Shown: positions 40,547 through 56,534 of the stretch, piece by piece
How the letters are laid out: every line of letters begins with the position of its first letter
Position numbering within the stretch: position 1 is the stretch's first letter
Source: Magnetospirillum sp. ME-1
GTDB lineage: Bacteria; Pseudomonadota; Alphaproteobacteria; Rhodospirillales; Magnetospirillaceae
Reading direction: 5' to 3'
NCBI RefSeq assembly: GCF_002105535.1
Contig: NZ_CP015848.1
Span: 3,576,926-3,640,925 of the forward strand
Length of the DNA: 64,000 nt
Program-made: the position numbers and the translations under genes
Notes under the pieces: generated by a model
What the model saw: only the letters and a program-made list of their open reading frames with translations
Database searches by the model: none
Told to the model about the DNA's origin: nothing

Positions 40547-41056
40547 ATGCAGGTGAGCAAGACCCCCCTCGATGGCGTTCTGTTGATCACGCCGCCGACC
40601 ATCTTCGAGGACTTTCGCGGCCAGTTCGTGGAAACCTACAACCGCGAGCTCTACAACGAAGCCGGCATCACCGTCGATTTCATCCAGGACGACATCTCCG
40701 TCTCGTCGCGCCACGTGCTGCGCGGCGTCCACGGCGATGCGGCGACCTGGAAGCTGCTGTCATGCCTGCATGGCAGCCTGTACCTGATGGTGATAAACAA
40801 CGATCCCGCCTCTGCGCAATACCGCCAGTGGACCTCGTTCACCCTGTCGGAGAAGAACCGCCAGCAGGTGCTGGTTCCTCCTAAGTTCGGTAACGGCCAT
40901 CTGGTGCTGAGCGAGCAGGCCATCCTCCATTACAAGCAGAACACCACCTATTGCCGCGAGGGCCAGTTCACCATCATGTGGAACGACCCGGCCTATGGCA
41001 TGTGGTGGCCCATCAGCAACCCGATCCTGTCCCGGCGCGACCTGGGGCTCGGCTGA
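40547..41056 (+). CDS. RmlC-like nucleotide-sugar 3,5-epimerase
   Basis: The 169-residue cupin has the RmlC plan: VSSRHVLRGVHGD supplies the catalytic His, YKQNTTYCREGQFTIMWNDP supplies the Tyr and the sheet around the sugar, and GMWWPISNPILSRRD is the C-terminal edge. It should epimerise C3 and/or C5 of a 4-keto-6-deoxy nucleotide sugar. With HddA- and HddC-like neighbours, the substrate may be a GDP-heptose derivative, as with MlghB/DdahB in Campylobacter (inference). ATG 40547 is chosen because GAGGAG precedes it. Confidence 0.8.
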   Translation: MQVSKTPLDGVLLITPPTIFEDFRGQFVETYNRELYNEAGITVDFIQDDISVSSRHVLRGVHGDAATWKLLSCLHGSLYLMVINNDPASAQYRQWTSFTLSEKNRQQVLVPPKFGNGHLVLSEQAILHYKQNTTYCREGQFTIMWNDPAYGMWWPISNPILSRRDLGLG

Positions 41057-41058
41057 GC

Positions 41059-41784
41059 GTGGCGGGGGCCTGTCTTGCGGCGGTGACGGCCGTCATCCTG
41101 GCCGGCGGCAAGGGCACCCGCATCGCCGGGCTGTTTCCCGGCATTCCCAAGCCGATGATTCCGGTGGCCGGCCAGCCCTTCCTGCATTGGGTGGTGCGCT
41201 GGCTGGACCAGCGCGGGATCGGCGACATCATGATCAGCGTCGGCCATCTGGCCGGGGCGATCGAGCAATGGGCCGCCGGGAAACCCCACGGCATCACCCT
41301 GCGCACCGTGGCCGAGACCGAGCCGCTGGGCACCGGCGGGGCGGTGGTGTCCTGCCTGGATGCCTGCCGCGACTGGGTTCTGGTGCTCAACGGCGATTCC
41401 CTGGTCGAGGTGGATCTGGCGGCCATGGTCGAGCGTGTCCGGCGTGACGGCCTGGACGGCGGCGTGGTCGGCGTGCGCGTCGCTGATGCCAGCCGCTACG
41501 GGTCGCTGGCGGTGGGGCCTGGGTTCCTGCTGACCGGTTTCGCCGAGAAGCGGGCCGGGGCGGGGCTGATCAATGCCGGGGTCTATCTGTTCCGCGCCGA
41601 GCTTTTGCGGCGCTTCCCATCGGGGCAACCGCTCAGCATGGAAACCGACATCATGCCGGCCCTGCTGGCAGGCGGCGCTCATCTGGCGGTGGAGGAGAGC
41701 ACTGGTCCCTTCCTCGACATCGGAACGCCGGAATCGGTGGTTCTGGCCGAAGATTTCGTCGGCGGGCTGTTCGGCGCCATCTAA
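41059..41784 (+). CDS. Sugar nucleotidyltransferase, HddC-like (heptose-1-phosphate guanylyltransferase type)
   Basis: The 241-residue protein has the nucleotidyltransferase signature VILAGGKGTRIAGLFPGIPK, PMIPVAGQPFLHWVV, and LNGDSLVEVDL for metal and nucleotide binding. It belongs to the branch that activates alpha-D-manno-heptose-1-P, or N-acetyl-muramate-type sugars, with GTP or UTP. The neighbouring HddA-like kinase makes GDP-heptose the best guess. The frame begins with GTG at 41059, two bases after the preceding stop. Confidence 0.8.
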   Translation: MAGACLAAVTAVILAGGKGTRIAGLFPGIPKPMIPVAGQPFLHWVVRWLDQRGIGDIMISVGHLAGAIEQWAAGKPHGITLRTVAETEPLGTGGAVVSCLDACRDWVLVLNGDSLVEVDLAAMVERVRRDGLDGGVVGVRVADASRYGSLAVGPGFLLTGFAEKRAGAGLINAGVYLFRAELLRRFPSGQPLSMETDIMPALLAGGAHLAVEESTGPFLDIGTPESVVLAEDFVGGLFGAI

Positions 41785-41861
41785 GTAATTTCTTAAGCGA
41801 GTCGGGCGTCTGATGATCGCCGGCGCACCCTGCCTCGACTGTCCAGAATGGGCTTTGACCG

Positions 41862-42878
41862 ATGTCGTTCGTAGTCTCGAGAACACCGTTCCGCGTGTCT
41901 TTTTTTGGGGGAGGGACCGACTATCCGGCCTGGTACCTGAAACATGGCGGTGTCGTGCTGTCGGCGGCCATCCGCCAGTACTGCTACATCACCTGCCGGT
42001 ACTTTCCGCCCTATTTCGAGACCGCCCACCGCATCGTCTGGTCCCATATCGAGGTGGTGTCGTCGTTCCGCGAGATCCTGCACCCGGCGGTGCGGGTGGC
42101 GCTGCCCGCGCTGGGCTTTCGCGACGACCAGGGGCTTGAGATCCATCACCAGGGCGACCTGCCGGCGCGGACCGGCATCGGCTCCAGTTCGTCCTTCGCC
42201 GTCGGCCTGATCAATGCGCTGAAAGCGCTGAGGGGCGAGACCATCAGCCGCCACGAACTGGCCCTGGCCGCCATCGATCTCGAACAGAACCTGCTGGGCG
42301 ACACGGTGGGCTCCCAGGATCAGGTGGCGGCGGCCTATGGCGGGCTGAACCTGATCCGCTTCAACACCGACGGCTCCTTCGTGGTCGAGCCGCTGGGCCT
42401 GTCTGCGGAAGCCCTGGCGGCCTTCGAAAGCCGCCTGCTGCTGGTCTATACCGGCAGCAAGCGCTTCGCCTCGGACATGGCGAAGAAACTGGTCGAGAAC
42501 ATCGAGGACAAGAACGATCGCCTGCGCCGCATGTATGATTTGACCTTCGAGGCGGCCAACACCCTGCGGGAAGGCCGGTTCGACGATTTCGGCCGCATGC
42601 TGGACGAGACCTGGCAGATCAAGCGCAGCCTCGATCCCTCCATCAGTACCTCGGCCATCGACCAGATCTATCAGGCGGCCCGGGCGGCGGGGGCTCTGGG
42701 CGGCAAGCTGATGGGGGCCGGCGGGGCCGGCTTCATGGCCTTCTACATTCCCGAAGGCGCCGAGCAGTCGGTGCGCTCGGCCCTGGACGGCCTGATCCAG
42801 GTGCCGTTCCAGGTGGACCACGACGGCGCGGCCCTGCTGGAGGTCTATGCCAACCTGCCGCGTGATCAGAACCGATGA
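41862..42878 (+). CDS. hddA: GHMP kinase, D-glycero-D-manno-heptose 7-phosphate kinase (HddA)-like
   Basis: The 338-residue GHMP-family kinase has RTPFRVSFFGGGTDYPAWYL at the N-terminus and the ATP loop DLPARTGIGSSSSFAVGLIN near residue 105. The third motif is KLMGAGGAGFMAFY near 285. This is the pattern of HddA, which makes the alpha-1,7-bisphosphate of D-glycero-D-manno-heptose for GDP-heptose synthesis. The phosphatase GmhB and isomerase GmhA, needed before and after it, are not in the window. Confidence 0.85.
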   Translation: MSFVVSRTPFRVSFFGGGTDYPAWYLKHGGVVLSAAIRQYCYITCRYFPPYFETAHRIVWSHIEVVSSFREILHPAVRVALPALGFRDDQGLEIHHQGDLPARTGIGSSSSFAVGLINALKALRGETISRHELALAAIDLEQNLLGDTVGSQDQVAAAYGGLNLIRFNTDGSFVVEPLGLSAEALAAFESRLLLVYTGSKRFASDMAKKLVENIEDKNDRLRRMYDLTFEAANTLREGRFDDFGRMLDETWQIKRSLDPSISTSAIDQIYQAARAAGALGGKLMGAGGAGFMAFYIPEGAEQSVRSALDGLIQVPFQVDHDGAALLEVYANLPRDQNR

Positions 42879-42879
42879 G

Positions 42880-42932
42880 CCCACTGGGCGCAGGAGCACC
42901 GCGCCTCATATTTGAGGCTCGATTCTCTAGCG
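42880..42932. repeat. Family C repeat copy (inverted) at the colD stop
   Basis: GGGCGCAGGAGCACCGCGCC, then GCCTCATATTTGAGGC hairpin and CTCGATTCTCTAG, is the reverse complement of 1807-1850. It contains the TAG stop of the divergently read colD-like gene, the same overlap seen at the thioesterase and crotonase genes. Confidence 0.65.
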
Positions 42933-44099
42933 GCAAACGTGATCAAGAACGTCGTGCAGCCGACGCAATTGAGGCTCGATGTCGAAGGGGTGGTTGCCGA
43001 CGAAAAAGCCGTAGTCATGGGCAATGTCGGCATTGGGGGCTCCGCCGTTGACCACCTCGTAGTCATAGTGCTTAAGCACGTCGTGGCGCAGGAAATTGCC
43101 GCCGGTAATAATGCGGAAGCCGATGTCCGCCTCGCCGAGAGCCTTGAACACCTTGTTGCGGTCAGGGTTACGGGCCGGATTGAGGATTACCGTAAAGGAA
43201 AAGGCCGAGCTCTTGCCGTTTTCCTTCTGGATGATGAACCGCTCATCACCGCCGAGAAGCTGCTGAAACAATTGGAGGTTCTTGCGGCGAATCGCGGTGA
43301 AGCCGGGCAGCTTCTTCAATTGCTCGCGTCCGATGGCGGCCTCGATCTCCAGCGGGCGGACGTTGTAGCCCGGAAGGATGAAGCGGTAGGCCTCGTAATG
43401 ATCGTTGGATTTCCTGGAATAGATCGAACTGTCCGGGGGCAGGTCGCGGGTCCAGCCGTGAGCGCGCATGCTGCGGCACAAATCGGCCAGTTCGTCGTCG
43501 TCCGTCAGAACGATGCCACCTTCCATGGTCGAGATGTGATGGGAGAAAAAGAAGCTGAAGGTATTGAGGTCCCCGAACGTGCCGCACTTCTTGCCGTTCA
43601 ATTCGGCGTCCATGCTTTCGCAATTGTCTTCGATGAGGTACAGGCCGTGTTTGTCGGCGAAGGCGCGGATCACGTCCATTGCCGCCGGATTACCCAGAAT
43701 CGACACGGCGACGATGGCGCGGGTCTTCGGCGTCAGGGCCTTTTCCAGCAAGGATGGCGCCATGTTGAGGGTCTGAAGGTCGATGTCTGTGAACTTCAGC
43801 CTCAGGCCGTATTGTTGCAGCGGGTGGTAGGTGGTCGCCCACGACAGCGCCGGCACGATCACTTCGTCGCCGCGCTGGAGCGGCCGCTCCTTCTTGTAGA
43901 ACAGCGCGGCGGTGGCGATCAGATTGGCGGACGATCCCGAATTCACCATTATGCCGTGCTTGGCGCCGAAATAGGCCGCAAATTCGGCTTCGAACGCCTT
44001 GACCTCGGCACCCATTGTGGTGAAGGTCGAGTCGATAACCCGCTTGGCAGCCGCGATTTCCTCTTCCCCCCAGCTTGGGGCGGCCAGTTCATAGAACAT
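42927..44099 (-). CDS. colD: ColD-like PLP-dependent GDP-4-keto-6-deoxy-sugar 3-dehydratase
   Basis: The 390-residue protein is a fold-type I aminotransferase of the DegT/DnrJ/EryC1/StrS family, but the PLP lysine is replaced: FSFFFSHHISTMEGGIVL has His at residues 187-188. His instead of Lys is the mark of ColD, which removes the 3-hydroxyl of GDP-4-keto-6-deoxymannose (and of RfbH, which also has Fe-S cysteines not seen here). The length and the His position match E. coli ColD. It should deliver 3,6-dideoxy sugars. No ColC or GMD is obvious nearby. The divergent GT10 gene may use the product. Confidence 0.85.
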   Translation of the reverse strand: MFYELAAPSWGEEEIAAAKRVIDSTFTTMGAEVKAFEAEFAAYFGAKHGIMVNSGSSANLIATAALFYKKERPLQRGDEVIVPALSWATTYHPLQQYGLRLKFTDIDLQTLNMAPSLLEKALTPKTRAIVAVSILGNPAAMDVIRAFADKHGLYLIEDNCESMDAELNGKKCGTFGDLNTFSFFFSHHISTMEGGIVLTDDDELADLCRSMRAHGWTRDLPPDSSIYSRKSNDHYEAYRFILPGYNVRPLEIEAAIGREQLKKLPGFTAIRRKNLQLFQQLLGGDERFIIQKENGKSSAFSFTVILNPARNPDRNKVFKALGEADIGFRIITGGNFLRHDVLKHYDYEVVNGGAPNADIAHDYGFFVGNHPFDIEPQLRRLHDVLDHVCR

Positions 44100-44562
44100 C
44101 GGTCAATTCCGTTCCAGGAGAGTTTGCAATCAGCATTGGCAAGGGACGTGGAAGCAGACGGCCGGGAGGGAAATTGCACAACCGCACTATTTGGCCAGCC
44201 AGAGCCAATTCCTTCAGTTGTGGCCAGAGCCAGGCCATAGGTGTTCTGCTCCCTCTTCCTTCTTATTTGGTTTATTTGGCACCCGGCAATCTGCACTGTC
44301 AAGCAGTCATTCCCGCCCATTGTCCCGTGATCCCTGCTCTTCCAAGGGTCGGGGCGTCGCCGAGTGATTCCACCTTCCGGGCTGGCGGGAATTTAGCTAT
44401 TCTGCCGCCGTTCCGAGGGGGCTTCGGCTGGGAGATGTCGGACGAAGACAGGGGGGGGCTGCGCCCGTCTGCCAGCCATTTTCTTTTCACCCAAAGTGAT
44501 GACTGTTTCGTAACCCGGCCTGGAATTCGGCTAGGGCCTGCCGGAATGGACTGGAGATTCGA
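44100..44562. other. Divergent intergenic region between colD and the GT10 gene
   Basis: This 463-bp gap has no convincing gene. It must hold the promoters of both divergent genes. An imperfect hairpin joins ATTCCCGCC (44309-44317) with GGCGGGAAT (44384-44392), reminiscent of a decayed family A repeat. An AT-rich stretch (CTTATTTGGTTTATTTGGCA, about 44261-44280) stands out. Confidence 0.5.
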
Positions 44563-45921
44563 ATGGATGCCGCGCAAGCCTTCAACGAAGCCGTAACCGC
44601 CCTTCATGAGGGGCGTTTTCTGGATAGCCAGAAGTTGTGTCTCGAGATCCTCAACCAGGATCCTCGCCATTTCGGCAGTCTGATTATTATGGCAACTCTG
44701 CATCAACAGGTGGGAAACTTCCAGGAGGCCATCAATCTTCTGACTCACGCAGGGTCGTTCCAGCTCTTCAATGACTGGCAATTCGTGCTGTTCGCCCGGG
44801 CGCTGGCGGCGGTGGGGCGGAAAGGCGAGGCGGTCGATCAGTATTTGAAGGCGCTGGTCGCCAATCCCGATATCCGTGCGACGACGCCGGATCTCTACGC
44901 CTTGCTGGAAGAGAAGCGGCGGGAGCCGGACCTGCCCCACCATCCGTTTCCGTCACCTCCGTGGAAGGCGTCGTTGGTGGCGGACCGCGCCTTCATGGAA
45001 AACCGTATCTTCACCCCCATGCCCGATACCTATCTCAGCCATTGGCCGATTTCCAATTGGGTCGCCTTGCGCGCGGCCATGGCGACCTGCGGCATCGATC
45101 TGGCGACCTACGACATCAACCCGCCGGAAACGTCGGATCTCATCTTTTACGTCAACGTCAATTCCATGCGCCACCTGCCGGAGGGAGAGGAGATCAGCCG
45201 TTCCGTGCTGCTGGCTTACGAGCCGGCGGTGGTTATCGCCCGCAACCGTGATACGGCGGTGCACGAACACTTCGCCAAGGTATTCATTGCCGACGATTCG
45301 CTCGTGGACAATGTGAAGATTTTCAAAATGCCCATGGCCTATTGCGAGGTGCCGGCCACGCGCCCCCAATTCGACGCCCGCAGCAAGACAAAGCTGTGCA
45401 CCATGGTGAACAGTGCCAAGTATTGGCCTTATTTCAATGAGTTGTACAGCCAGCGCATGGCGCTGATCCGCTGGTTCGAGGAGCATCATCCCGAAGATTT
45501 CGAGTTCTACGGGGCGGGCTGGAAGGCGGCGGAGTACCCATCCTACCGGGGGGCGATCAGCAACCGGGAAAAGGTGTCCATTCAGGCTCCTTACCGGTTT
45601 GCCGTCTGCTACGAGAACAATTCGGACTCGCCCGGCGCCATCACCGAAAAGATTTTCGACTGCCTGCTGGGCGGCTGTGTCCCCATCTACTGGGGTGTTC
45701 CCAATATCACCGCCTATGTGCCCAAGACATGCTTCATCGATCGCCGGGATTTCGCCACCAACGAGGAGCTTTACAACTACCTCAAGGGCATGGGGGACGA
45801 TGAATTGCAGGGATATCTGGACAGCATCTCCGACTATCTGGTGGGGGATCGGTGCCGATACTTCACGGACCAGTGCTTTGCGTCGACGATTCTGCGCCAG
45901 GTTCTGGGGATGCTGCCTTAG
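44563..45921 (+). CDS. TPR-GT10 fusion glycosyltransferase (alpha-1,3-fucosyltransferase fold)
   Basis: The 452-residue protein starts with TPR-like helices (about 1-120; EALHEGRF-like TALHEGRFLDSQKLCLEIL and ALAAVGRKGEAVDQYLKALV) and continues with a family 10 glycosyltransferase. FAVCYENNSDSPGAITEKIF and DCLLGGCVPIYWG form the GDP-donor site of bacterial alpha-1,3-fucosyltransferases. A TPR fused to GT10 is unusual. As it faces a ColD-like gene, the donor may be a GDP-dideoxy sugar rather than GDP-fucose (inference). GGAG lies six bases before the ATG. Confidence 0.85.
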   Translation: MDAAQAFNEAVTALHEGRFLDSQKLCLEILNQDPRHFGSLIIMATLHQQVGNFQEAINLLTHAGSFQLFNDWQFVLFARALAAVGRKGEAVDQYLKALVANPDIRATTPDLYALLEEKRREPDLPHHPFPSPPWKASLVADRAFMENRIFTPMPDTYLSHWPISNWVALRAAMATCGIDLATYDINPPETSDLIFYVNVNSMRHLPEGEEISRSVLLAYEPAVVIARNRDTAVHEHFAKVFIADDSLVDNVKIFKMPMAYCEVPATRPQFDARSKTKLCTMVNSAKYWPYFNELYSQRMALIRWFEEHHPEDFEFYGAGWKAAEYPSYRGAISNREKVSIQAPYRFAVCYENNSDSPGAITEKIFDCLLGGCVPIYWGVPNITAYVPKTCFIDRRDFATNEELYNYLKGMGDDELQGYLDSISDYLVGDRCRYFTDQCFASTILRQVLGMLP

Positions 45922-46061
45922 CTGGTGCCTCTTGTGATTTTAGGGATTTTCTCTCGGTAGGATGCGTGATTCATGGTGGTCGGGTATTACTCAGTTGACT
46001 CCTGACGCTTTAGGTACAAACTTGCCTAGTGATCGAGGTGCGTGGATATATTGAGCGTGAG

Positions 46062-46973
46062 ATGATGGAGGGCGGTGCATTGAATCAGGTGGCGGGAACA
46101 TCCGTAGAAAATGAGAAATTTCTAGCCGCGATTGAACGTGGCGCAGTGTCGGCCAGTGATTTTCTATCGGCATCAAGTGCATTTCTGGAGAATTCAGATC
46201 TGTATGATCAGGTTTGCCGGAAGTGGATGAGGCATTATCAGGGCTGGGATATTATCGGTGTGTTAGCACTATTTGCTGATGTTTTAAAGTCTAACGGTAA
46301 TATTTTTGGGGCGCTTCAAATTTACCGCAAGATGTTGGCGGAGTTCCAATTGGATCCGGCTATTTTGTCCCAGATCAGACTTCTGCTCAATCAAGTTGGC
46401 TTTGATCAATATGCTCAGAATCAATACATTGCAAGTCCGATGATTGACGCCGAAATGGTGAGGGGGGGGGATGCGATTCTAAAGAGAATTTCACGTGGGG
46501 GGTTGTCATTCTCAGAGCTGTTGGTTTTGTTGAACAGCGTTGATCGCGCTACTAAAATTATTTTATTGATGAAGTGGGTCGGATTTCACCGGCTATCTCC
46601 ATTTTGCGGGGTTGCTTTGGCGTATTCTGCGATCAACCGATACTACTCCGGAGACCGTGAGGGGGCTTTTGAATGGTTTGAGTCTGCGCGAGGCTTGAAG
46701 GGGGCGGAGGCTTTTTGCTGTGCGGCTCTGCACAAAATCCATGGTAAGAAGTACAAAAAAAATAGCGATGCCAGATATAACTGGAGCAAATTTATTGCAG
46801 GAGTCTCTGCTCATCTTGATGAAAAATATGAAGATGCGATTGCAATATATGATGAGCTTGCCGGGGATAACCCAACTGAGAAAGATATTATTCTTTCAAT
46901 CGGGTTGCTTGCTATTGATTGTAATTTTGGTGGTCGTATTGATGCTCTTGCCCATTTAAAAATGGGACTCTGA
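46062..46973 (+). CDS. Uncharacterised AT-rich TPR-like protein
   Basis: About 300 residues, helical throughout, with repeats such as NGNIFGALQIYRKMLAEFQL and KYEDAIAIYDELAGDNPTEK that look like TPR units. No catalytic motif is seen. The DNA is AT-rich and uses codons (ATA, TTA, AGA) avoided by the neighbours. The start is unclear: GTG 46029 and ATG 46062 are possible, and TTG 46080 has a perfect GGAGGG at seven bases; I report ATG 46062. It probably assists a glycan or secretion step with the next gene. Confidence 0.6.
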   Translation: MMEGGALNQVAGTSVENEKFLAAIERGAVSASDFLSASSAFLENSDLYDQVCRKWMRHYQGWDIIGVLALFADVLKSNGNIFGALQIYRKMLAEFQLDPAILSQIRLLLNQVGFDQYAQNQYIASPMIDAEMVRGGDAILKRISRGGLSFSELLVLLNSVDRATKIILLMKWVGFHRLSPFCGVALAYSAINRYYSGDREGAFEWFESARGLKGAEAFCCAALHKIHGKKYKKNSDARYNWSKFIAGVSAHLDEKYEDAIAIYDELAGDNPTEKDIILSIGLLAIDCNFGGRIDALAHLKMGL

Positions 46974-47003
46974 GGCTTGTCTTAATTTTATAGGGGTAGT
47001 GTC

Positions 47004-47696
47004 ATGAGGAGATTTCCGCACTTTAGCCAGCCGAGGTCGTCAAGGTATTCGTCATTTTACGATATAGTATATCAAATGTATGAGCCCTACACATTGATAG
47101 ATAGGGAGTACTATGTGGATAATCTGTCTATCGTTGATCATTTTTCAACTTTTTTCTCTGGAGATATTGTTGAATGCGGGACATGGAAGGGGGGGATGGC
47201 CTGCGGAATGATGGCTGTTTGTGGTTCTGGAAAAAAATACCATTTTTTTGATTCTTTTGAGGGGCTTCCTCCGCCGCGGGATATTGATGGGGGGGCGGCG
47301 ATGAGCTTGCATCAAAAGCCTTATTATTATAATAATAACAGGGCTGACTATGATGAGTTTTGTCAACTTGTGTATGCGCAATCTGTTCCTCGTGAGAATA
47401 TAAGTATATATAAGGGGTGGTTTTCTGATACGTTGCGTCAATACAGTGGTGGCCCGATATCTGTTCTCCGCTTGGATGGTGACTGGTATGATTCAACGAT
47501 GCAGTGTTTGCGTGGGCTTTGGGATCTTGTTGAGCCTGGTGGTGTTGTAATTATTGATGATTACATAGCGTTTTCTGGATGCTCCAGGGCTGTTCATGAC
47601 TTTTTATCCAGTATATCGTCAATTTCGAGAATATCTAGGACGCCTAGAACCGAGGTTGCGTATATTTGGAAATGTGATGGTGCGTATGCGCCATAG
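47004..47696 (+). CDS. TylF/MycF-type O-methyltransferase
   Basis: The 230-residue protein has the TylF family pattern: GDIVECGTWKGGMACGMM for SAM, YHFFDSFEGLPPP, and VLRLDGDWYDSTMQCL followed by GGVVIIDDY with the metal-binding acidic residues. It methylates a sugar hydroxyl in surface polysaccharides or natural products. It sits on the AT-rich segment with the preceding gene, so both were probably acquired together. ATG 47004 precedes the typical basic N-terminus. Confidence 0.8.
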   Translation: MRRFPHFSQPRSSRYSSFYDIVYQMYEPYTLIDREYYVDNLSIVDHFSTFFSGDIVECGTWKGGMACGMMAVCGSGKKYHFFDSFEGLPPPRDIDGGAAMSLHQKPYYYNNNRADYDEFCQLVYAQSVPRENISIYKGWFSDTLRQYSGGPISVLRLDGDWYDSTMQCLRGLWDLVEPGGVVIIDDYIAFSGCSRAVHDFLSSISSISRISRTPRTEVAYIWKCDGAYAP

Positions 47697-47951
47697 TATA
47701 TATTTCTTGCTTATGACTTGATTTCACAGAGGAATCTGCGCGCAATCCTTATTTTGTCGGTTATAATATGTCAAACAATTGATCGAGTCGCGGTGTATGG
47801 AGGATTTTGCTGTATAAGCAATCTATTTTGCTTTTGGAGCGACAGGCCATACAGCTATGCAGAACCGACATCCGAAACTTTAGTTCTGCGCCGCCCCTGA
47901 GGGCGCTGGCAACTCTCCTCCATAGCTTGGTGTGGCAACTTTTGCCCCCAG
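47697..47951. other. AT-rich to GC-rich transition, no gene
   Basis: The first 180 bases remain AT-rich with no convincing frame; from about 47890 the base composition returns to the GC-rich norm. It marks the right edge of the foreign segment, beside the transposase remnant. Confidence 0.5.
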
Positions 47952-48095
47952 GACCTGCCGCGCCTGACACGCCGCTACAACTGGCACCGGCTCCATGGTA
48001 TCGTGACGCCACGGACGCCTGTGAGCCGGCTCGCGCCTGACCGGGGGCAACCTCTTGTCACGCCTCGGCTGGATGCGGTGCGGCGATGGTTGTGA
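47952..48095 (+). pseudogene. Degraded C-terminus of an IS481-type transposase
   Basis: The frame 47952-48095 reads DLPRLTRRYNWHRLHGIVTP, then RTPVSRL, and ends at TGA. The sequence YNWHR-x-H-x(5-8)-TP-x-SRL is the conserved tail of IS481-family transposases, here with substitutions and without the catalytic DDE part. No terminal inverted repeat was found. It is a remnant, not an active element. Confidence 0.55.
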
Positions 48096-48214
48096 TATTT
48101 TTTGATCCGAGGGACGGGCTTGTCACGGACAAGCGGTTTCCTTCTGTAGGCTCCCGTTGCTGTTTGGGGTGTACCCCGGCACTTGGGGGCGCCTGAGAGG
48201 AAAAGGGCAGTTAG
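48096..48214. promoter_or_regulatory. Leader before the B12/radical-SAM operon
   Basis: Two small inverted repeats are visible: GCTTGTC-ACG-GACAAGC (48118-48134) and GGGGT-GT-ACCCC (48166-48177). With no other gene between them and the start at 48215, either may be an operator or leader hairpin for the following operon. I did not recognise a cobalamin riboswitch here. Confidence 0.35.
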
Positions 48215-49702
48215 ATGGCAAAGGCCGTAGATGTTCTGTTCATTCACCCCGGTGACGCGAAGAAGATTTATCAGGGTTTGGCCGCCGATTTTGCCGCCAT
48301 CGAGCCGCCTCTGTTCGCCGGCCTCTATGCCAATTACGTCCGCTCCAAGGGCTTGGTTCCGGCCATCTACGACGCGCCGGCCATGCGGGCCAGCGCCGAA
48401 GAGACCGCCCGTGTCGCCACCGAAGAATATCGCGCACGCCTGATTGTGATCGTGGTTTACGGCCAGCAGCCTTCCGCCTCGACCCAGAACATGGGCGCCG
48501 CCGGCCGTATCGCCCGCCGGATCAAGGAACGCGATTCCGGGCAGAAGATCATGATGGTCGGCACCCATCCCGCCGCCCTGCCCGAGAGCACCCTGCGCGA
48601 CGAGGCCATCGACTTCGTCTGTGACCTCGAGGGGCCGGCCACCATCTACAAGACCGCCCGGGCGCTGATCGACGGCCAGGGCAACCTGGGCGACATCCCC
48701 AGCCTGTGGTGGCGCGATGGCGAGGCCATCGTCAAGCCGAATTCGGCCGAGCCGCTGATCCGCGATCTGGACGCCGAGTTGCCGGGCATGGCCTGGGACC
48801 TGCTGCCCATGGAGCTTTACCGCGCCCACAACTGGCACTGCTTCACCCACATCAACGAGCGTTCGCCCTACGCCTCGATCCACACCTCGCTGGGCTGCCC
48901 CTACAAGTGCAACTTCTGTTGCATCAACACGCCCTTCGGGCGGTCTTCGTATCGCATGTGGAGCCCCGAGAAGGTGGTGGCCGAGATCGACCACCTGGTC
49001 GAGACCTATGGCGTCAGGAACATCAAGATCGCCGACGAAATGTTCGTCCTGAACAAGCGTCATGTGAAGGCCATCTGCGAATTGCTGATCAGCCGTCCCT
49101 ACACCGTCAACATCTGGGCCTATGCCCGCGTCGATTCGGTGGACGAGGAATTGCTGCCGCTGTTGAAGCAGGCCGGCGTCAACTGGCTGTGCCTTGGCAT
49201 CGAAAGCGCGAGCGACAGCGTCCGCGATGGTGCCGACAAGATCTACACCATGGACGACATCAAGGATGTGTGTAGCCGCATTCAGGCGGCCGGCATTTTC
49301 ATCATCGGCAACTTCATCTTCGGCCTGCCCGACGATACGCCGGAACGCATGCAGGCGACCCTGGATCTGGCTCTCGAACTCAATTGCGAGTTCGCCAATT
49401 TCTATTCGGCCATGGCCTATCCGGGATCACAGCTTTATCGCGACGCGGTGGCCCAGGGGCTGGAACTGCCCGAGACCTGGGACGACTTCTCGCAGCACGG
49501 CTATAAGTGCAAGCCCCTGGCCAACCAGCACCTGACCGCCCGGCAGATTCTGGAATTCCGGGACCGCGCCTTCATGACCTATTTCACCCACCCGCCCTAT
49601 CTGGAGATGGTGCGCGAGAAATTCGGCCAGGAGGTGGTCGATCATATCAAGAGCGTGATTTCGATCCCGCTGAAGCGCCAACTTCTGGAAGCAGCCGAGT
49701 AG
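48215..49702 (+). CDS. B12-binding-domain radical SAM protein
   Basis: The 495-residue protein has an N-terminal Rossmann-like cobalamin-binding-type region (about 1-150) and a radical SAM domain with the iron-sulfur motif CPYKCNFCC (Cys 228, 232, 235), followed by IKIADEMFVLNKRHVKAIC and LGIESASDSVRDG. Class B radical SAM methyltransferases use this layout to methylate unactivated carbons or phosphinates; no DxHxxG cobalamin His motif is obvious, so the cofactor is not certain. It is followed within 11 bases by transketolase genes, which suggests one operon. Confidence 0.85.
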   Translation: MAKAVDVLFIHPGDAKKIYQGLAADFAAIEPPLFAGLYANYVRSKGLVPAIYDAPAMRASAEETARVATEEYRARLIVIVVYGQQPSASTQNMGAAGRIARRIKERDSGQKIMMVGTHPAALPESTLRDEAIDFVCDLEGPATIYKTARALIDGQGNLGDIPSLWWRDGEAIVKPNSAEPLIRDLDAELPGMAWDLLPMELYRAHNWHCFTHINERSPYASIHTSLGCPYKCNFCCINTPFGRSSYRMWSPEKVVAEIDHLVETYGVRNIKIADEMFVLNKRHVKAICELLISRPYTVNIWAYARVDSVDEELLPLLKQAGVNWLCLGIESASDSVRDGADKIYTMDDIKDVCSRIQAAGIFIIGNFIFGLPDDTPERMQATLDLALELNCEFANFYSAMAYPGSQLYRDAVAQGLELPETWDDFSQHGYKCKPLANQHLTARQILEFRDRAFMTYFTHPPYLEMVREKFGQEVVDHIKSVISIPLKRQLLEAAE

Positions 49703-49712
49703 GACATCCGCC

Positions 49713-50558
49713 ATGGGATTCGACATGAAGACGGTGAACGTGGCCGAGTTGATCAAGCGTTCGCAATGGCTGCGGCAGGCATTGTTCGAAATGGTGGTCA
49801 AACATCAGGCCGGTCACCTGCCCTCCAGTTTCTCGATGGCCGAGATTCTGGTGTCGCTGTATTACGGCGGCGTCGCCCGCGTCACCCGCGGCAACCCCAA
49901 GGATCCCAACCGCGACCGCATCCTGGTCTCGAAGGGCCACGCCGCCATGTCGCAGTACCCGATCCTGGCCGATTTCGGGTTTTTCCCGGCCGAGGAACTG
50001 GACCGCTTCACCCAGTTGGACGGTCTCCTGGGCATGTACGCCGATTTCCGCATCCCCGGCATCGAGGGCATCTCCGGCTCGCTGGGCCACGGCGTCGGGA
50101 TGGGGGCCGGCATCAGCCTTGCCGCCCGCATCGACGGTCAGAAACACCGGACCTTCGTCATCCTGGGCGACGGAGAGAATTACGAGGGGTCGATCTGGGA
50201 AAGCGCCATGTTCGCCGCCCATCACAAACTTGATAACCTGGTGGTGATCGTCGATCGCAACCAGCTGTGCATCCTGGGCCGTACCGAGGAGTTGCTTGAA
50301 CTGGGCGACCTCGAGGACAAGTGGCGGTCGTTCGGTTGGGACGCGGTCACTGTCGATGGCCATTCCTACAAGAGCCTGCTGCCCGCCTTCGAACGCATCG
50401 GCAGGAACGGCAAGCCCACCGCCATCATCGCCAACACGGTGAAGGGCAAGGGCGTGTCATTCATGGAAGGCCAGGCGGTTTGGCACAACCGGATGCCCAG
50501 CGAGCAGCAGGCGTTGCAGGCTCGCCGCGAATTGGCCGTTAACTGCATCATCGATTAA
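49713..50558 (+). CDS. Transketolase, N-terminal (TPP-binding) subunit
   Basis: The 281-residue protein is the first half of a split transketolase: KHQAGHLPSSFSMAEILVSL, DRILVSKGHAAMSQY and LGHGVGMGAGISLAARI, followed by the TPP motif LGDGENYEGSIWE...DNLVVIVDRN. It transfers two-carbon ketol units using TPP and Mg, together with the second subunit. Split transketolases are common in special-sugar and natural-product clusters. The next gene begins 13 bases after its stop. Confidence 0.88.
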   Translation: MGFDMKTVNVAELIKRSQWLRQALFEMVVKHQAGHLPSSFSMAEILVSLYYGGVARVTRGNPKDPNRDRILVSKGHAAMSQYPILADFGFFPAEELDRFTQLDGLLGMYADFRIPGIEGISGSLGHGVGMGAGISLAARIDGQKHRTFVILGDGENYEGSIWESAMFAAHHKLDNLVVIVDRNQLCILGRTEELLELGDLEDKWRSFGWDAVTVDGHSYKSLLPAFERIGRNGKPTAIIANTVKGKGVSFMEGQAVWHNRMPSEQQALQARRELAVNCIID

Positions 50559-50571
50559 GGGGGCGGATCTC

Positions 50572-51516
50572 TTGGCCAACGCAACTCTCATGCGCGACGC
50601 CTTCATCGACTATATCTACGATGCGGCGAAGGCAAACTCCAACCTGATGTTCCTGTCGGCCGATTTCGGCGCCAAGGCACTGGACCGTTTCCGCGAGGAC
50701 CTGCCGAACCAGTTCCTCCACACCGGTATCGCCGAGCAGAACATGGTCGATCTGGGGGCCGGCCTTGCCATCGCCGGCAAGCAGGTCATCCTGTACGCCA
50801 TGGCCCCCTTCCTGACCGCCCGCTGCTACGAGCAGATCAAGGCGGTGCTGTGCGCCATGAACCTGCCCATCGCCCTGGTCGGCGTCGGTGCGGGGCTGGG
50901 CTACGACCACGCCACCCTGACCCACTTCACCCCCGAGGATATCGCCTCGACCAAGGCGTTGAACCACATGGAAGTGTGGTCCATGGCCGATTCGCCCAGC
51001 GCCCTGGCCCTGGCCGAGTTGATCGCCGAGCAGCCGGCCCTGCGCTATGTCCGCCTGGAGCGCCAGCCGATGCCGCCGATTTACGGCACGGTCGGCCGTG
51101 CCGATCTGGAGCGCGGCTATGGCCATCTGCGCCAGGGACGCGACCTGTGTATCGTCGCTTGCGGCTACATGACCCACAAGGCGCTGATTGCCGCCGACCA
51201 GTTGGCGGCCGAGGGGATTTCGGCCGGCGTGGTCGATCTGTTCCGTATCAAGCCTCTGCCGGCCGACCTCGTCGGCCTGCTGGCCGGATATGGCGCCGTG
51301 ATCAGCGTCGAGGAGCAACTGCTCGAGGGCGGCTTCGGCAGCGGCGTTCTCGAAGGCCTCGCCGACGCCGGAATCATGCGCCCGTTCAAGCGCCTGGGCC
51401 TGCGCAACGGCTTCGACGTCACCAACGGCGATCGCGACCAGTTGCATGCCAAGTACGGCATCGACATCCCCGATATCGTGGCGGCGGCCCGTTCGCTGGG
51501 CGGCAAGGCTGTCTGA
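50572..51516 (+). CDS. Transketolase, C-terminal subunit
   Basis: The 314-residue protein is the second half: NLMFLSADFGAKALDRFRED, HTGIAEQNMVDLGAGLAIAG and GVGAGLGYDHATLTHFTPED form the pyrimidine-binding domain, with Glu in IAEQN activating TPP, and VDLFRIKPLPADLVGLL ends the C-terminal domain. It starts with TTG behind GGGGG. It completes the heterodimer with the previous gene. Confidence 0.88.
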   Translation: MANATLMRDAFIDYIYDAAKANSNLMFLSADFGAKALDRFREDLPNQFLHTGIAEQNMVDLGAGLAIAGKQVILYAMAPFLTARCYEQIKAVLCAMNLPIALVGVGAGLGYDHATLTHFTPEDIASTKALNHMEVWSMADSPSALALAELIAEQPALRYVRLERQPMPPIYGTVGRADLERGYGHLRQGRDLCIVACGYMTHKALIAADQLAAEGISAGVVDLFRIKPLPADLVGLLAGYGAVISVEEQLLEGGFGSGVLEGLADAGIMRPFKRLGLRNGFDVTNGDRDQLHAKYGIDIPDIVAAARSLGGKAV

Positions 51517-51531
51517 GCGGAAGGGCGCGGC

Positions 51532-52452
51532 ATGCCACGCATCAAGGTGACGTCGACCTCGTTCTCGCAAAATCCGCTGCTGGCCCAGGAATTGCGGGCC
51601 GTGTTTCCAGACGCCGTCCTGAATGAGGAAGGCCGCCGCCTGGCGGGGCCGGATTTGGCCGCCTTTCTGGCCGACGCCGACGGGGCGGTGATCGGGCTGG
51701 AAAAGGTCGATTCCGCACTGCTGGATGCCTGCCCCCGGCTGAAGATCGTCGCCAAATACGGTGTCGGCCTCGACAACATCGACATCCCAAAGTGCCAGGA
51801 CCGGGGTGTCGCCATCGGCTGGACAGGCGGAGTCAACCGCCGTTCGGTCGGCGAACTGGCCCTGTGCTTCATGCTGGGCCTGTGCCGCAACGTGTTCCGC
51901 ACCTCGACCCTGATGCGCGGTGGCGTGTGGGAAAAGAATGGCGGGGTCCAACTGTCCGGCAAGACGGTGGGCATCATCGGACTGGGCCACACCGGTCGCG
52001 AGGTGGCTCGCCTGCTCGAACCCCTGCATTGCCGGGTGCTCGCCAACGACATCCTCGACATGGGCGATTACTGCCGGGACAACGGCATCATCCCCGCGGG
52101 CAAGGAGCAGATTTTCGCCGAGGCGGACGTGCTGACCCTGCATGTTCCGTGCACGCCTTTGACGACCAGACTGGTCAATGCCGACACCCTGAGGGCCATG
52201 AAGCCTTCGGCGGTCCTGATCAACACCTGTCGGGGGGAGGTGGTGGACCAGGAGGCGCTGAAGGCTGCGCTGAAACAGGGCACCATCGCAGCGGCGGCCA
52301 TTGATGTGTACGAGGAGGAACCTCCCACCGACATGGAACTGTTGCTCCTGCCGAACCTGGTGTGCACGGCCCATATCGGAGGAAACGCCCACGAGGCGGT
52401 GGTGGCCATGGGGCGTTCCGCCATCGGGCATCTTACGGACTATTTCGGTTAG
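51532..52452 (+). CDS. D-2-hydroxyacid dehydrogenase (phosphoglycerate dehydrogenase-like)
   Basis: The 306-residue protein has the NAD motif VGIIGLGHTGREVARLL and the catalytic set: Arg in INTCRGEVVD, Glu in IDVYEEEPP and His in CTAHIGGNA. No ACT domain is present, so it is not a classical SerA. It reduces a 2-keto acid or oxidises a 2-hydroxyacid, presumably one formed in this sugar operon. GGAAGG precedes ATG 51532. It lies 15 bases after the transketolase gene. Confidence 0.87.
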   Translation: MPRIKVTSTSFSQNPLLAQELRAVFPDAVLNEEGRRLAGPDLAAFLADADGAVIGLEKVDSALLDACPRLKIVAKYGVGLDNIDIPKCQDRGVAIGWTGGVNRRSVGELALCFMLGLCRNVFRTSTLMRGGVWEKNGGVQLSGKTVGIIGLGHTGREVARLLEPLHCRVLANDILDMGDYCRDNGIIPAGKEQIFAEADVLTLHVPCTPLTTRLVNADTLRAMKPSAVLINTCRGEVVDQEALKAALKQGTIAAAAIDVYEEEPPTDMELLLLPNLVCTAHIGGNAHEAVVAMGRSAIGHLTDYFG

Positions 52453-52523
52453 GGAAGAAAACCACCCCGGTGCTCAAGGGGGCGATCATGCTGCGACGGC
52501 AGCCGCTATCGCGCCTTTCCGCC

Positions 52524-52562
52524 TTCCGGATGATCCGGAACTCGGTCTGCGGCAACGTCTGA
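52524..52562 (+). pseudogene. Remnant of a NAD-epimerase C-terminus
   Basis: The frame FRMIRNSVCGNV-stop closely matches the end FRMIRNAIYGNV-stop of the epimerase at 53576-54514 (33 of 39 bases by my count). It is preceded by no homologous body, so it is the last trace of a lost or recombined paralogue. Confidence 0.55.
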
Positions 52563-52610
52563 GAGAGGCCCTTGGCGATACCGAAGGCGCGAGATTGGAA
52601 AGGAATACAG

Positions 52611-53519
52611 ATGAAAACCATCGTCTTCGGCGGCAGCGGGTTCCTCGGCTCCTATGTGGTGGACGAGCTGACACATCGTGGCCACGACGTGGTTATCTTC
52701 GACCGCCAGCCATCGCCATATCGTCCCGACCTTCCTTTTATCCTGGGGAACATCCTTGATCGTGAGGCGGTCGCGGCGGCGGTGAAGGGATGCGACTATG
52801 TTTACAACCTGGCCGGAGCGGCCAACGTAGAATTGTCCATCGACTCTCCGCTCGAATATCTGGAGGTCAACATCATTGGCAACGCCAATGTCCTGGAAGC
52901 AGCCCGGCAGGCCGGCGTCAGCCGCTTCATATATGCCAGTTCGGCCTACGCGCTCTCAGACCGCGGCGCTTTTTACGGGACCTCGAAGCGCACCTCCGAA
53001 AAAGTGATCGAATTGTACCAGGAGCATTACGGCCTGAATTACACCATCTTGCGGTACGGTTCGGTCTACGGGACACGCTCGGATAACAGCAACCGCATCT
53101 ACCGCCTGCTGAAACAGGCCTTGACCGAGGGCAAGGTGGTATTTCCCGGCAGCGGCTCCGAGGAGCGGGAATACATTCACTGCGCCGATGCCGCGCGGCT
53201 ATCCGTGGACATCCTCGGCGACTGGGGCTGCAACGAGACCTTCATCCTGACCGGGATGGAACGTTTCAGCTATAAGGAACTGCTCAATCTGATCAGCGAA
53301 ATCATGGGCGGGAAGGTGAAAATCGAACTTCAGGAAGGCAATTACAAGGGGCACTACAACCTGACCCCCTACCATTTCAACCCCAGCTTGGGGAAGAAGC
53401 TGATCAGCAACCCTTGCATCGATTTCGGCCAGGGGCTTCTGGATTGCATTACGGCCCTGCACAATGAATTGCTCACTCCCGACGAGGTGATCGTGGAAGG
53501 ACCTCGGAAGGACGGCTGA
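52611..53519 (+). CDS. NAD-dependent sugar epimerase/dehydratase, extended SDR
   Basis: The 302-residue protein has the Rossmann motif VFGGSGFLGSYVVDELT and the catalytic YASSAYALSDRGAFYGTSKR with Ser/Tyr/Lys (YGTSK). It is similar to nucleotide-sugar 4-epimerases and dehydratases. The sugar is not known; it ends the B12/transketolase operon. ATG 52611 follows AAGGAATACAG. A long C-terminal half binds the nucleotide sugar. Confidence 0.85.
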   Translation: MKTIVFGGSGFLGSYVVDELTHRGHDVVIFDRQPSPYRPDLPFILGNILDREAVAAAVKGCDYVYNLAGAANVELSIDSPLEYLEVNIIGNANVLEAARQAGVSRFIYASSAYALSDRGAFYGTSKRTSEKVIELYQEHYGLNYTILRYGSVYGTRSDNSNRIYRLLKQALTEGKVVFPGSGSEEREYIHCADAARLSVDILGDWGCNETFILTGMERFSYKELLNLISEIMGGKVKIELQEGNYKGHYNLTPYHFNPSLGKKLISNPCIDFGQGLLDCITALHNELLTPDEVIVEGPRKDG

Positions 53520-53575: not shown

Positions 53576-54514
53576 TCAGACGTTGCCGTAGATCGCGTTG
53601 CGGATCATCCTAAAGCCCTTGACCAGTTCCTTGATGCCGTCGTCCAGGGAATGGGCCGGGCGCCAGCCGGTGCCCTCGATCTTGGCGTTGGAGACGATGT
53701 AGTCGCGCTTGTCCATGTCCTCGCCGATGGGGGCCTCGACGGCGACGAATTCGGGCACGTGGCGGCGGATGCGCTCGGCCAGCTGGATCTTGGACAGGTT
53801 GGCGTCGGACAGGCCGACGTTATAGGCCTGGTCGCGCATGGTCTCGAAATTGTCCAGACCGTGCATGAAGGCCCGCGTCACGTCGCGGATATGGATGTAA
53901 TTGCGGATGAAGTGCCCTTCGAACAGCACCACCGCCCGGTCGTTGACCGCCCGGTGGACGAAGTCGTTGACCAGAAGGTCGATGCGCATGCGCGGCGCCA
54001 TGCCGAACACGGTGGCCAGGCGGAAGCTGATGGCGTTGCCGCGGTCCAGCAGCGCCCTTTCCACCTCGACCTTGTGAACGCCGTAAAGGGAAATGGGGCG
54101 CAGCGGCGTTTCCTCGGTGCATTCCTTGCCGGCCTCGCCGATGCCGTAGCCGGAATTGGTGATGGGCATCAGCACTCGCTGCTCCTTGGACAGCATCTTG
54201 AACAGATTGATCTGGCCGTCGAGGTTGAGCGAGGTGGCGCCGATGGGGTCCTGGTTGCACAAGGGCGCGCCCACCAGCGCGGCCAGCGGGATCACCACAT
54301 CCGTATCGGCCAGCAGCCTCTTCAAGAGCGCCTGATCGCGGGCGTCGCCCTTGATCACGTCGAACTTGGGGTTGGCGCAGCAATGGGCCAGCGAGTTCTG
54401 CTTGAACATGAAATTGTCGAGCACGGTCACGGTGTGACCGGCGGCAAGCAGTTCGGGGACCATGATCGAGCCGAGATAGCCGGCTCCGCCGGTGACCAGG
54501 ATCTTGTAAGGCAT
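53576..54514 (-). CDS. NAD-dependent epimerase/dehydratase, extended SDR
   Basis: The 312-residue protein has ILVTGGAGYLGSIMVPELLA and the catalytic TNSGYGIGE and SLYGVHKVEVERALL (YGVHK). It resembles nucleotide-sugar 4-epimerases/4,6-dehydratases. It leads from a divergent partner with a matching C-terminal remnant at 52524. It follows, on the same strand, the methyltransferase gene at 54552 by 37 bases. Confidence 0.87.
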   Translation of the reverse strand: MPYKILVTGGAGYLGSIMVPELLAAGHTVTVLDNFMFKQNSLAHCCANPKFDVIKGDARDQALLKRLLADTDVVIPLAALVGAPLCNQDPIGATSLNLDGQINLFKMLSKEQRVLMPITNSGYGIGEAGKECTEETPLRPISLYGVHKVEVERALLDRGNAISFRLATVFGMAPRMRIDLLVNDFVHRAVNDRAVVLFEGHFIRNYIHIRDVTRAFMHGLDNFETMRDQAYNVGLSDANLSKIQLAERIRRHVPEFVAVEAPIGEDMDKRDYIVSNAKIEGTGWRPAHSLDDGIKELVKGFRMIRNAIYGNV

Positions 54515-54551: not shown

Positions 54552-55772
54552 TCAGGCGGTCTGCTTGCGCGCCAGGGCCCACACCATCAGCGGCACGTCG
54601 GGCTCGTTCTGCAGGGAATGGGAATAGGGGTCGTAGATGGCCGCCTGGTCGAAATTGGCGATGACGCACCAGCGGTTGCCCCACGACCCGGTCTTGATGT
54701 CCTCGGACCGGAAGCCGGCCGCTTCCAAGAGGTTGCGCAGGCCCATCTCGGTCCAGCGGGAATAGTCGCTGGGATCGGCATGGACCCGGAACATGAACGG
54801 CGTGGTGACCAGCAGGTAGCCGCCCTCGTTCAGGCTGGCATAGAGGCACTGGATGGCGACCCACGGGGTGGGGACGTGTTCCAGCACCTGCTCGGCGATC
54901 ACCATGTCGAAGCCGGTGCCGTCGCCCTTGCGCAGCACGTGCTTGGTGATGTCCACCTGGGGATAGATGGCGACGGCATAATCGCGGAAGCCGAAATTCT
55001 GCCAGCCGTTGCCCGACACCTCGACCGCCGACATGCAGGCGTAGTCCAGCTGCGACACCAGCTTCTTGGTTTCCTGGTTCATGACGATGCGGCACCAGTG
55101 GACGTCGGCCGGCGACATGATCTGGTTGCGCCGCAGCCAGTGGTCCTTGAGGCGGGTGATGTCGCGCTCGAGACCGACCATCTGGGTCAGCTTGGCGTTG
55201 TAGAGGTCGGGATGGATGCGGTCGAAGGAGGCGGGCGGGCGGTCGCTGGCGTGGCCCTTGCGGAAGACCAGCAGGTTCTGGCGGCACCACAGGTCGATGC
55301 GTCCGTCGTTCCAGATGGCTTCGCGGACGCTGTCGTCGGCGCCGAAGCCATGGGCGGCGAAGGCTTCGACCCAGAAGGAATGCCAGCGGGGATTGGTGAT
55401 GCCGGTGTCGATCTGGCCGGGGATGGTGGCGGCCATCACCACCGTATCGGCCAGCGCCGCCAGTTCGGCCACCAGGGACTCGGTGCGTTCGGGGGCGATG
55501 CGGTCGGCGGCGGCCAGGCACAGCGCCAGGTCGTAATGCCGGTCGGCCTTCACCGGCTGGGCCAGCTCCTCGGGGCCGGCGGCCAGCACCTTCTGTTCCT
55601 TGACCTTGCGCTTGGGCAGCTTGGCCAGCAACGCGGTGGCGCCGCCGCCCACGTCGCAGACCGAGGTGACGGGCGGCAGGCGTTCCAGCAGCAGGGGAAC
55701 CAGCGCCCCGGCGGCATCGGCCTCCAGAAGCGGGGCGGGGAGCGGGGTCATCTCGCTGGCGTTGTCATCCAT
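54552..55772 (-). CDS. Two-part class I SAM methyltransferase
   Basis: The 406-residue protein begins with a degenerate methyltransferase-like half (VTSVCDVGGGATALLAKLPK, about 45-180) and ends with a better conserved methyltransferase half: VEVSGNGWQNFGFRDYAV, FDMVIAEQVLEHVPTPWVAI and GGYLLVTTPFMFRVHADPSD. A double arrangement is seen in some glycan methyltransferases. ATG 55772 has CGGAGAG upstream; a longer frame without a ribosome site was rejected. It probably methylates the cluster's sugar. Confidence 0.75.
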   Translation of the reverse strand: MDDNASEMTPLPAPLLEADAAGALVPLLLERLPPVTSVCDVGGGATALLAKLPKRKVKEQKVLAAGPEELAQPVKADRHYDLALCLAAADRIAPERTESLVAELAALADTVVMAATIPGQIDTGITNPRWHSFWVEAFAAHGFGADDSVREAIWNDGRIDLWCRQNLLVFRKGHASDRPPASFDRIHPDLYNAKLTQMVGLERDITRLKDHWLRRNQIMSPADVHWCRIVMNQETKKLVSQLDYACMSAVEVSGNGWQNFGFRDYAVAIYPQVDITKHVLRKGDGTGFDMVIAEQVLEHVPTPWVAIQCLYASLNEGGYLLVTTPFMFRVHADPSDYSRWTEMGLRNLLEAAGFRSEDIKTGSWGNRWCVIANFDQAAIYDPYSHSLQNEPDVPLMVWALARKQTA

Positions 55773-55831
55773 GGAACTCTCCGTCGCTGGTGCTTGCCGC
55801 AAGCTGTCGATGGGGGCCTGGGGCGGCGGGA

Positions 55832-56512
55832 TCAGGACAGGACGAAGAAGGCGTTGCCCTCGGGCCACGCGCTGGTCCAGTTCTCCTTGACGCCCTTGAA
55901 GGTGTGACTGAAGCGGTCGACGTTCCATCCGGTCTCGGCGAACAGCCGGGTCCACCAGGCGGCGGTGCGCGCCGTGATGTGGGTGATGTCCTTGTCGTAG
56001 TCGGGGATGACGAAATTGGGGCTGTCGTCGCTGATGCCCAACGGGATCACCGCGAACATGCGCTTGACCTTGGGCCGCGCGCGGGCCAGCAGCTTGCGCA
56101 GATCGGGTTCGGCGATGTGCTCGAACACGTCCTTGGACAGCATCCAGTCGTATTCGCGCTCGAAGGCGGCCGGATCATCGCAGCCTTCCACCACCCGGCA
56201 GAAATGGCGGACCTCGGAGGGGGCCTGATCGATGGCGTAGGCCGACAGGTCGACGCCGTAGGTGTCCACGTCCAGGATGCGCATGGCCTTGACCAGGAAG
56301 CCCTTGGCGCAGCCGTAATCCAGCACCAGCTGGCCGGGATCGATGGGCAGCTGGTTGATGATGAAATGCGCCATGCGCAGCGTCGCCTCGGGCATCCATG
56401 AATAGTTCATGTAGCCGGAGATGCCGATCACCGCGCCGCGTTCGAAATAGGCCTCGCCGTAGACCGATGCTTCGATGGCCTTCTGGCCGTCAGGCTGTTG
56501 CATGGAAGACAT
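55832..56512 (-). CDS. Class I SAM-dependent methyltransferase
   Basis: The 226-residue protein has the SAM motif LVLDYGCAKGFLVKAMRIL and the downstream DWMLSKDVFEHIAEPDLRKL and RMFAVIPLG segments. The start ATG 56512 is preceded by GGGGGAGAGGGGA. It is encoded just after the radical SAM gene on the same strand and before the two-part methyltransferase, in a probable operon. Confidence 0.82.
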   Translation of the reverse strand: MSSMQQPDGQKAIEASVYGEAYFERGAVIGISGYMNYSWMPEATLRMAHFIINQLPIDPGQLVLDYGCAKGFLVKAMRILDVDTYGVDLSAYAIDQAPSEVRHFCRVVEGCDDPAAFEREYDWMLSKDVFEHIAEPDLRKLLARARPKVKRMFAVIPLGISDDSPNFVIPDYDKDITHITARTAAWWTRLFAETGWNVDRFSHTFKGVKENWTSAWPEGNAFFVLS

Positions 56513-56534
56513 TCCCCTCTCCCCCGTCATTCTG

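Follow-up and report, generated by a model that had tools for sequence, protein, structure and literature searches.

Introduction

One of the closest described relatives of the gene cluster reported here is the capsular GDP-heptose modification of Campylobacter jejuni, in which Cj1427 and a C3-dehydratase convert GDP-heptose to GDP-D-glycero-3-deoxy-4-keto-heptose in vitro (PMC10680097). The text of that paper mentions neither a transketolase nor the word "branched". We analysed a window of 64,000 nucleotides from Magnetospirillum sp. ME-1 (NZ_CP015848.1, positions 3,576,926-3,640,925 of the forward strand), in which the interval 40547-53519 and the gene directly beyond it hold a sugar cluster with HddA, HddC, an RmlC-like epimerase of the Campylobacter kind, a C3-dehydratase and a C4-dehydrogenase (53% identity to Cj1427). 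GmhB lies outside the cluster in both organisms. The window differs from the C. jejuni system in that the C4-dehydrogenase and the C3-dehydratase stand in one module, and in its additional genes for a thiamine diphosphate (ThDP) heterodimer, a B12/radical-SAM protein and a 2-hydroxyacid dehydrogenase. Judging from these genes, we consider it rather probable that the product is a carbon-branched heptose, activated with GDP and destined for a surface glycan, with a two-carbon (C2) branch added at C4 by a split transketolase.

Several ThDP enzymes that branch sugars are known (PMC12247030). YerE, of the yersiniose pathway, adds a C2 unit to a nucleoside diphosphate (NDP)-3-deoxy-4-keto sugar of a surface glycan, and an analogous reaction is predicted here. 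YerE, however, is a member of the decarboxylase superfamily that acts on a CDP-hexose, whereas the window encodes a split transketolase outside that superfamily (Pfam Transketolase_N, Transket_pyr and Transketolase_C), for which a GDP-heptose is predicted. E1-type (alphaKADH2) pairs such as KbDH of kibdelomycin attach C2 branches to keto-sugars of antibiotics with pyruvate as the donor. E1-like pairs replace the transketolase in modules related to that of the window, where they sit among GDP-heptose genes as putative branching enzymes. For miharamycin and amipurimycin, split transketolases were proposed to transfer a hydroxyacetyl group to a keto-sugar; the window likewise has a two-chain transketolase beside NDP-keto-sugar genes. 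As summarized in the same paper, the 13 branching enzymes of this kind predicted in a study that it cites are all from Streptomycetes, whereas that of the window belongs to an alphaproteobacterial glycan cluster, and no ketone-accepting split transketolase had been shown in vitro. The metabolic split transketolase of Carboxydothermus (6yak/6yaj) shares the family and the two-chain arrangement with the window enzyme, but keeps the equivalents of Ser385, His461 and Asp469, all three of which the window chain lacks.

Predicted enzymes for a GDP-heptose-derived sugar

The initial annotation, confined to 40547-53519, had proposed a deoxy sugar derived from GDP-heptose. All the cluster genes that it named are intact open reading frames with gene-like GC content by codon position and with support from Pfam, NCBIfam and PDB (Table 1). 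The GDP-heptose assignment is supported by a relative of Cj1427, which had been missed and adjoins the interval. The AlphaFold model of this protein (27 sequences, mean confidence pLDDT 91; an earlier model had 8 sequences and pLDDT 56) superposed on Cj1427 with a Z score of 43.5 and a root mean square deviation of 1.2 Å over 302 residues, while the next match other than Cj1427 gave a Z score of 35. Judged by sequence and predicted model, it is a close relative of Cj1427, an NAD-dependent GDP-heptose C4-dehydrogenase.

Homologues of HddA and HddC are present, their closest solved structures being of the HddA/HddC type and their scores lying under the NCBIfam equivalog cut-offs. HddA was the top NCBIfam model for the kinase (129 bits, under the cut-off). 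The HddC-like protein matched 6jq8, annotated as "6-deoxy-D-mannoheptose pathway protein"; it scored 113 bits with the NCBIfam HddC model (cut-off 300 bits) and higher, again under the cut-off, with the model of mannose-1-phosphate guanylyltransferase. The best solved relatives of the RmlC-like protein include the C. jejuni GDP-4-keto-heptose C3/C5-epimerases (7ang, 8db5), and the protein is predicted to be such an epimerase. In the ColD-like protein an SHH motif aligned with ColD. Since a His thereby replaces the catalytic Lys, the enzyme is of the true C3-dehydratase type. The known substrate of ColD is GDP-4-keto-6-deoxymannose; for the window enzyme the gene context points to GDP-4-keto-heptose instead. 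These five genes co-occur in the window, and in many related genomes the majority of them are again found together, in agreement with the deoxy sugar first proposed.

GmhA and GmhB were not found within the interval, as the initial annotation had noted. A search of the genome gave GmhA-like genes at 2749669 and 2852519 and a GmhB-like gene at 2867678, all under the curated cut-offs and moderately certain. Two genes considered as stand-ins, one for a HAD protein (39224, for GmhB) and one for a uracil-DNA-glycosylase-like protein (39892, for GmhA), were rejected, being conserved flanks (86-95% in L023 and L025). The genome also holds a full-length transketolase (847 bits) and a true GMD with a ColD paralogue of its own. 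With its GmhA-like and GmhB-like genes the genome can thus provide GDP-heptose.

Active site of the split transketolase

The initial annotation had suggested that the split transketolase could supply sedoheptulose-7-phosphate, the substrate of GmhA (PMC10680097); the remaining genes would then make an ordinary deoxy GDP-heptose. The heptose-type genes (HddA, HddC and the C4-dehydrogenase) and the GmhA homologues of the genome are consistent with this. Sedoheptulose-7-phosphate, however, need not come from the split enzyme, because a complete transketolase is encoded elsewhere. In addition, when the window chain was compared with that full-length enzyme and with 6yaj (E. coli numbering), the substrate-pocket residues of metabolic transketolases were found to be replaced: Ser385 by Lys, His461 by Gly and Asp469 by Ala. 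Arg358, Glu411, His473 and Arg520 were retained. His461 takes part in phosphate binding by transketolase. Changes at Ser385, Asp469 and Arg520 turned E. coli transketolase from phosphorylated to non-phosphorylated acceptors (PMC5073344). Moreover, related modules carry in its place an E1-like pair, a family not known for sedoheptulose-7-phosphate synthesis. The split transketolase thus probably does not supply this compound, and the pathway built on that supply seems quite unlikely. The likelier role of the enzyme is to add extra carbons to a 4-keto sugar, and in this respect the "carbon-extended" sugar of the initial annotation looks right.

Of 79 split transketolases counted from a scan of genome contigs, 22 had His461 and 57 did not. 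Nucleotide-sugar genes were nearby for 2 of the 22 and for 36 of the 57 (p 1.2e-5). Several of the enzymes lacking His461 adjoin RfbH-type C3-dehydratases, in unrelated phyla. Loci shared by such dehydratases (AHH/PHH motif) and a glycan-type split transketolase (L029, L069, L070, L076, L082, L088, L090, L096, L107, L124, L135 and L137) come from archaea, Clostridia, Chlorobiaceae and others, and often hold a 4,6-dehydratase-like gene. These loci may represent a CDP-sugar version of this branching chemistry.

A second split transketolase of this genome lies in a different glycan cluster (L041, 2777000-2796900). Its neighbours there are an APH-like kinase, a CTP_transf-PfkB fusion (HldE-like, but with the two domains in swapped order), two DegT proteins that have the catalytic-site Lys, and a short-chain dehydrogenase/reductase (SDR) that shares about 33% identity with the C4-dehydrogenase. 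Some of these genes were found again in L033, L037, L040 and L042. The HldE-like fusion could favour another explanation, in which the transketolase of the window extends a sugar phosphate to an octose or nonose before activation, much like the transaldolase of lincosamide biosynthesis, and HddA and HddC activate the longer sugar. HddA/HddC homologues do activate GDP-octose in lincosamide producers. In the BLAST panel, however, no GmhA-like isomerase was found beside the transketolase clade of the window, the substrate-pocket residues are altered, and E1-like pairs take the place of the transketolase in related loci. We regard this explanation as very unlikely.

Conservation of the gene module

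The conservation of the module was surveyed from ColD, in order to avoid selection by transketolase: ColD was searched for in 385 genomes from this class, and reading covered twenty stretches with a maximum length of 20 kb. Together with the earlier loci, 24 loci contained both ColD and a Cj1427-type enzyme, and hddA was found in 21 of them, hddC in 19, a radical-SAM gene in 15 and GMD in one. A ThDP heterodimer was present in 22, mostly adjoining colD. It was an E1alpha/E1beta pair in 15 loci (Pfam E1_dh for alpha; Transket_pyr and Transketolase_C for beta) and a split transketolase in 7; two loci had neither and none had both (Fisher p 1e-4, for loci that are not independent). In the majority of its loci, the E1 pair lies immediately before colD. 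We conclude that colD, the C4-dehydrogenase gene and hddC/hddA with one ThDP heterodimer form a conserved module in related Alphaproteobacteria. On the ColD tree the transketolase label needs three changes, of which the well supported branches force no more than one; repeated exchange of the two heterodimers is therefore likely rather than shown. One locus (L184) holds GmhB-like, GmhA-like, radical-SAM, E1alpha, E1beta, colD, C4-dehydrogenase, hddC and hddA genes together, in effect the entire proposed route starting from sedoheptulose-7-phosphate. GmhA-like and GmhB-like genes also share a 20-kb stretch in L188.

These counts bear on two other explanations. It would be possible that the cluster makes a colitose-like GDP-3,6-dideoxy-hexose from GDP-mannose, and that the transketolase branches this hexose. 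The genome has a true GMD, whose product is the known substrate of ColD, and one surveyed locus (L189) combines GMD, ColD (52%) and a split transketolase. The GMD of the genome, however, adjoins a paralogue of ColD (2179512-2180648) that shares the His motif, so that a separate ColD is available for the hexose route, and the window's kind of ColD accompanies the Cj1427-type enzyme and hddA/hddC, hardly ever GMD. Use of the GMD product by the window ColD was dropped when the Cj1427 relative and this paralogue were found, and the hexose pathway appears unlikely. The paralogue (in L055, 2170001-2190000 of the genome) is 41% identical to the ColD of the window, and with GMD it looks like the ordinary 3,6-dideoxyhexose pair.

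Alternatively, an unbranched 3-deoxy-heptose might be made, with the ThDP pair and the 2-hydroxyacid dehydrogenase serving another step, for example an acyl substituent. All the reactions are inferred from genes, and the 3,6-dideoxy-heptoses of C. jejuni arise without any ThDP enzyme (PMC10680097). The presence of the heterodimer in nearly all the loci, mostly next to colD, and its retention in a genome that has no ColD (G016, below) nevertheless make this highly improbable.

Loci approached from the transketolase did not refute the cluster as a unit, as related genomes holding just part of the set at unrelated sites would have done. In L063 and L064 (Rhodospirillaceae) nine genes, rSAM-tkN-tkC-2HADH-SDR-colD-C4DH-hddC-hddA, form a single run on one strand. 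In L032, L035, L036 and L039, from the same genus as the window, a split transketolase of another kind (about 43% identity) stands immediately beside a ColD orthologue (80%), followed by an orthologue of the C4-dehydrogenase (79%) and a relative of the B12/radical-SAM protein. L024 (the same as L066, Caenispirillum) has a transketolase of the window's clade, with ColD a few kb distant. In all loci of that clade (the window, L023, L024/L066 and L062-L065) the 2-hydroxyacid dehydrogenase gene directly follows tkC.

Proposed reactions

From the chemistry of Cj1427 and the C3-dehydratase, from the branching by YerE and E1-type enzymes and from that proposed for split transketolases, the module can most simply be read as activation of a heptose, oxidation at C4, removal of O3 and addition of a C2 unit at C4. 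The Cj1427-type enzyme would oxidise C4 of GDP-heptose, the ColD-type enzyme would strip the C3 hydroxyl, and inversion at C3/C5 may be the task of the RmlC-like enzyme. The split transketolase would act as a carboligase that moves a hydroxyacetyl group to the C4 ketone, giving a tertiary alcohol. The neighbouring D-2-hydroxyacid dehydrogenase may provide hydroxypyruvate as the donor, and the SDR at 52611-53519 would reduce the product, at the new branch or at a ring ketone. Where the branch sits, which donor is used and what glycan results are likewise predictions. Of the NAD epimerases named in the initial annotation, only this SDR is of that kind; the other is the D-2-hydroxyacid dehydrogenase.

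Several facts weigh against the branched GDP-heptose. The survey was confined to the Alphaproteobacteria, and the loci counted are related to one another. The combination in L189 means that some transketolases may act on hexoses. Since Arg358 and Arg520 are retained, phosphate binding may not have been lost. L023, from G016, has the island of the window with the transketolase, the C4-dehydrogenase and the same flanks, but without colD, and a genome search of G016 found no ColD-type gene; 3-deoxygenation is therefore not obligatory, and G016 suggests that it is optional. In L062, of which 20.9 kb was read, tkN-tkC-2HADH-SDR had no heptose genes around it. The hddC and hddA genes of the window belong to a different lineage from those of L063/L064 (about 40-47% identity). 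Its rmlC-hddC-hddA genes are closer to the L025, L027 and L030 group (59-79%), so that the window is a mosaic. Finally, no branched heptose of the predicted kind was found in the literature searched (open-access, chiefly two papers), which for transketolases or branched heptoses in glycan clusters gave nothing beyond the ThDP review and the work on Campylobacter. As for L062, it comes from a metagenome-assembled genome of "Candidatus Magnetocorallium" and has no ColD genes near these four either; the four genes may be a portable C2-branching cassette.

Other features of the window

Table 1. Features of the sugar cluster (positions in the window)
Feature	Position	Strand	Support
RmlC-like cupin	40547-41056	+	Pfam 1.9e-44; PDB 7ang 2.1e-31, 8db5 7.4e-31
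HddC-like D-glycero-D-manno-heptose-1-phosphate guanylyltransferase	41068-41784	+	PDB 6jq8 2.3e-32
HddA-like GHMP kinase (heptose-7-phosphate 1-kinase)	41862-42878	+	PDB 3k85 (heptose kinase) 5.6e-36
ColD-type, pyridoxamine phosphate (PMP)-dependent C3-dehydratase	42927-44099	-	PDB 2gms (ColD) 6e-114; SHH motif
TPR + GT10 (fucosyltransferase-like) glycosyltransferase	44563-45921	+	Pfam Glyco_transf_10 3.5e-12
TylF-type methyltransferase	47004-47696
B12-binding radical-SAM protein	48215-49702	+	Pfam; recurrent module member
Split transketolase N chain, ThDP-binding	49713-50558	+	Pfam Transketolase_N 3.6e-32; PDB 6yak 2.8e-62
Split transketolase C chain	50572-51516	+	Pfam; PDB 6yaj 8.4e-41
D-2-hydroxyacid dehydrogenase (phosphoglycerate dehydrogenase/hydroxypyruvate reductase-like)	51532-52452	+	Pfam 2-Hacid_dh_C 2.8e-51; PDB 1wwk 2.5e-50
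SDR, NAD epimerase/reductase kind	52611-53519	+	Pfam Epimerase 2.4e-45 (scan began at 52572)
Cj1427-type GDP-heptose C4-dehydrogenase (SDR), directly beyond the interval	53576-54514	-	PDB 6vo6/6vo8 6e-115

The GT10 glycosyltransferase is 84% conserved in L023 and may possibly use the GDP-sugar product of the cluster. The stretch 46000-48200 has a low GC content (about 45%, against 65%) and holds a TPR-like open reading frame (46029-46973) and the TylF-type gene; searches of related loci with these two found no counterpart of either, and the stretch looks like a recent insertion. Orthologues of the SDR at 52611-53519 occur at 57% in L062-L064. The minus-strand region 54552-58070 codes for two methyltransferase-like proteins and another radical-SAM protein; these genes are 92-98% conserved in L023, against 71-79% for the transketolase-2-hydroxyacid dehydrogenase-SDR core of the island.

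Significance

C2 branching of keto-sugars is known from a few antibiotics and has not been described for GDP-heptoses. If the pathway proposed here is true, it would be a route to carbon-branched higher sugars of this undescribed class, and a ketone-accepting transketolase would become testable. The residue signature would tell split transketolases of the glycan type apart from metabolic ones, and many of these enzymes are otherwise labelled simply "transketolase". More tentatively, at slightly less than even chances, nine-carbon C4-branched (3-deoxy-)heptoses carried on GDP might be a widespread, undescribed class of surface sugars, for which the split transketolase (hydroxyacetyl) and the E1-like pair (acetyl) would be interchangeable, and split transketolases without His461 might be the general "hydroxyacetyl YerE" of bacteria and archaea.

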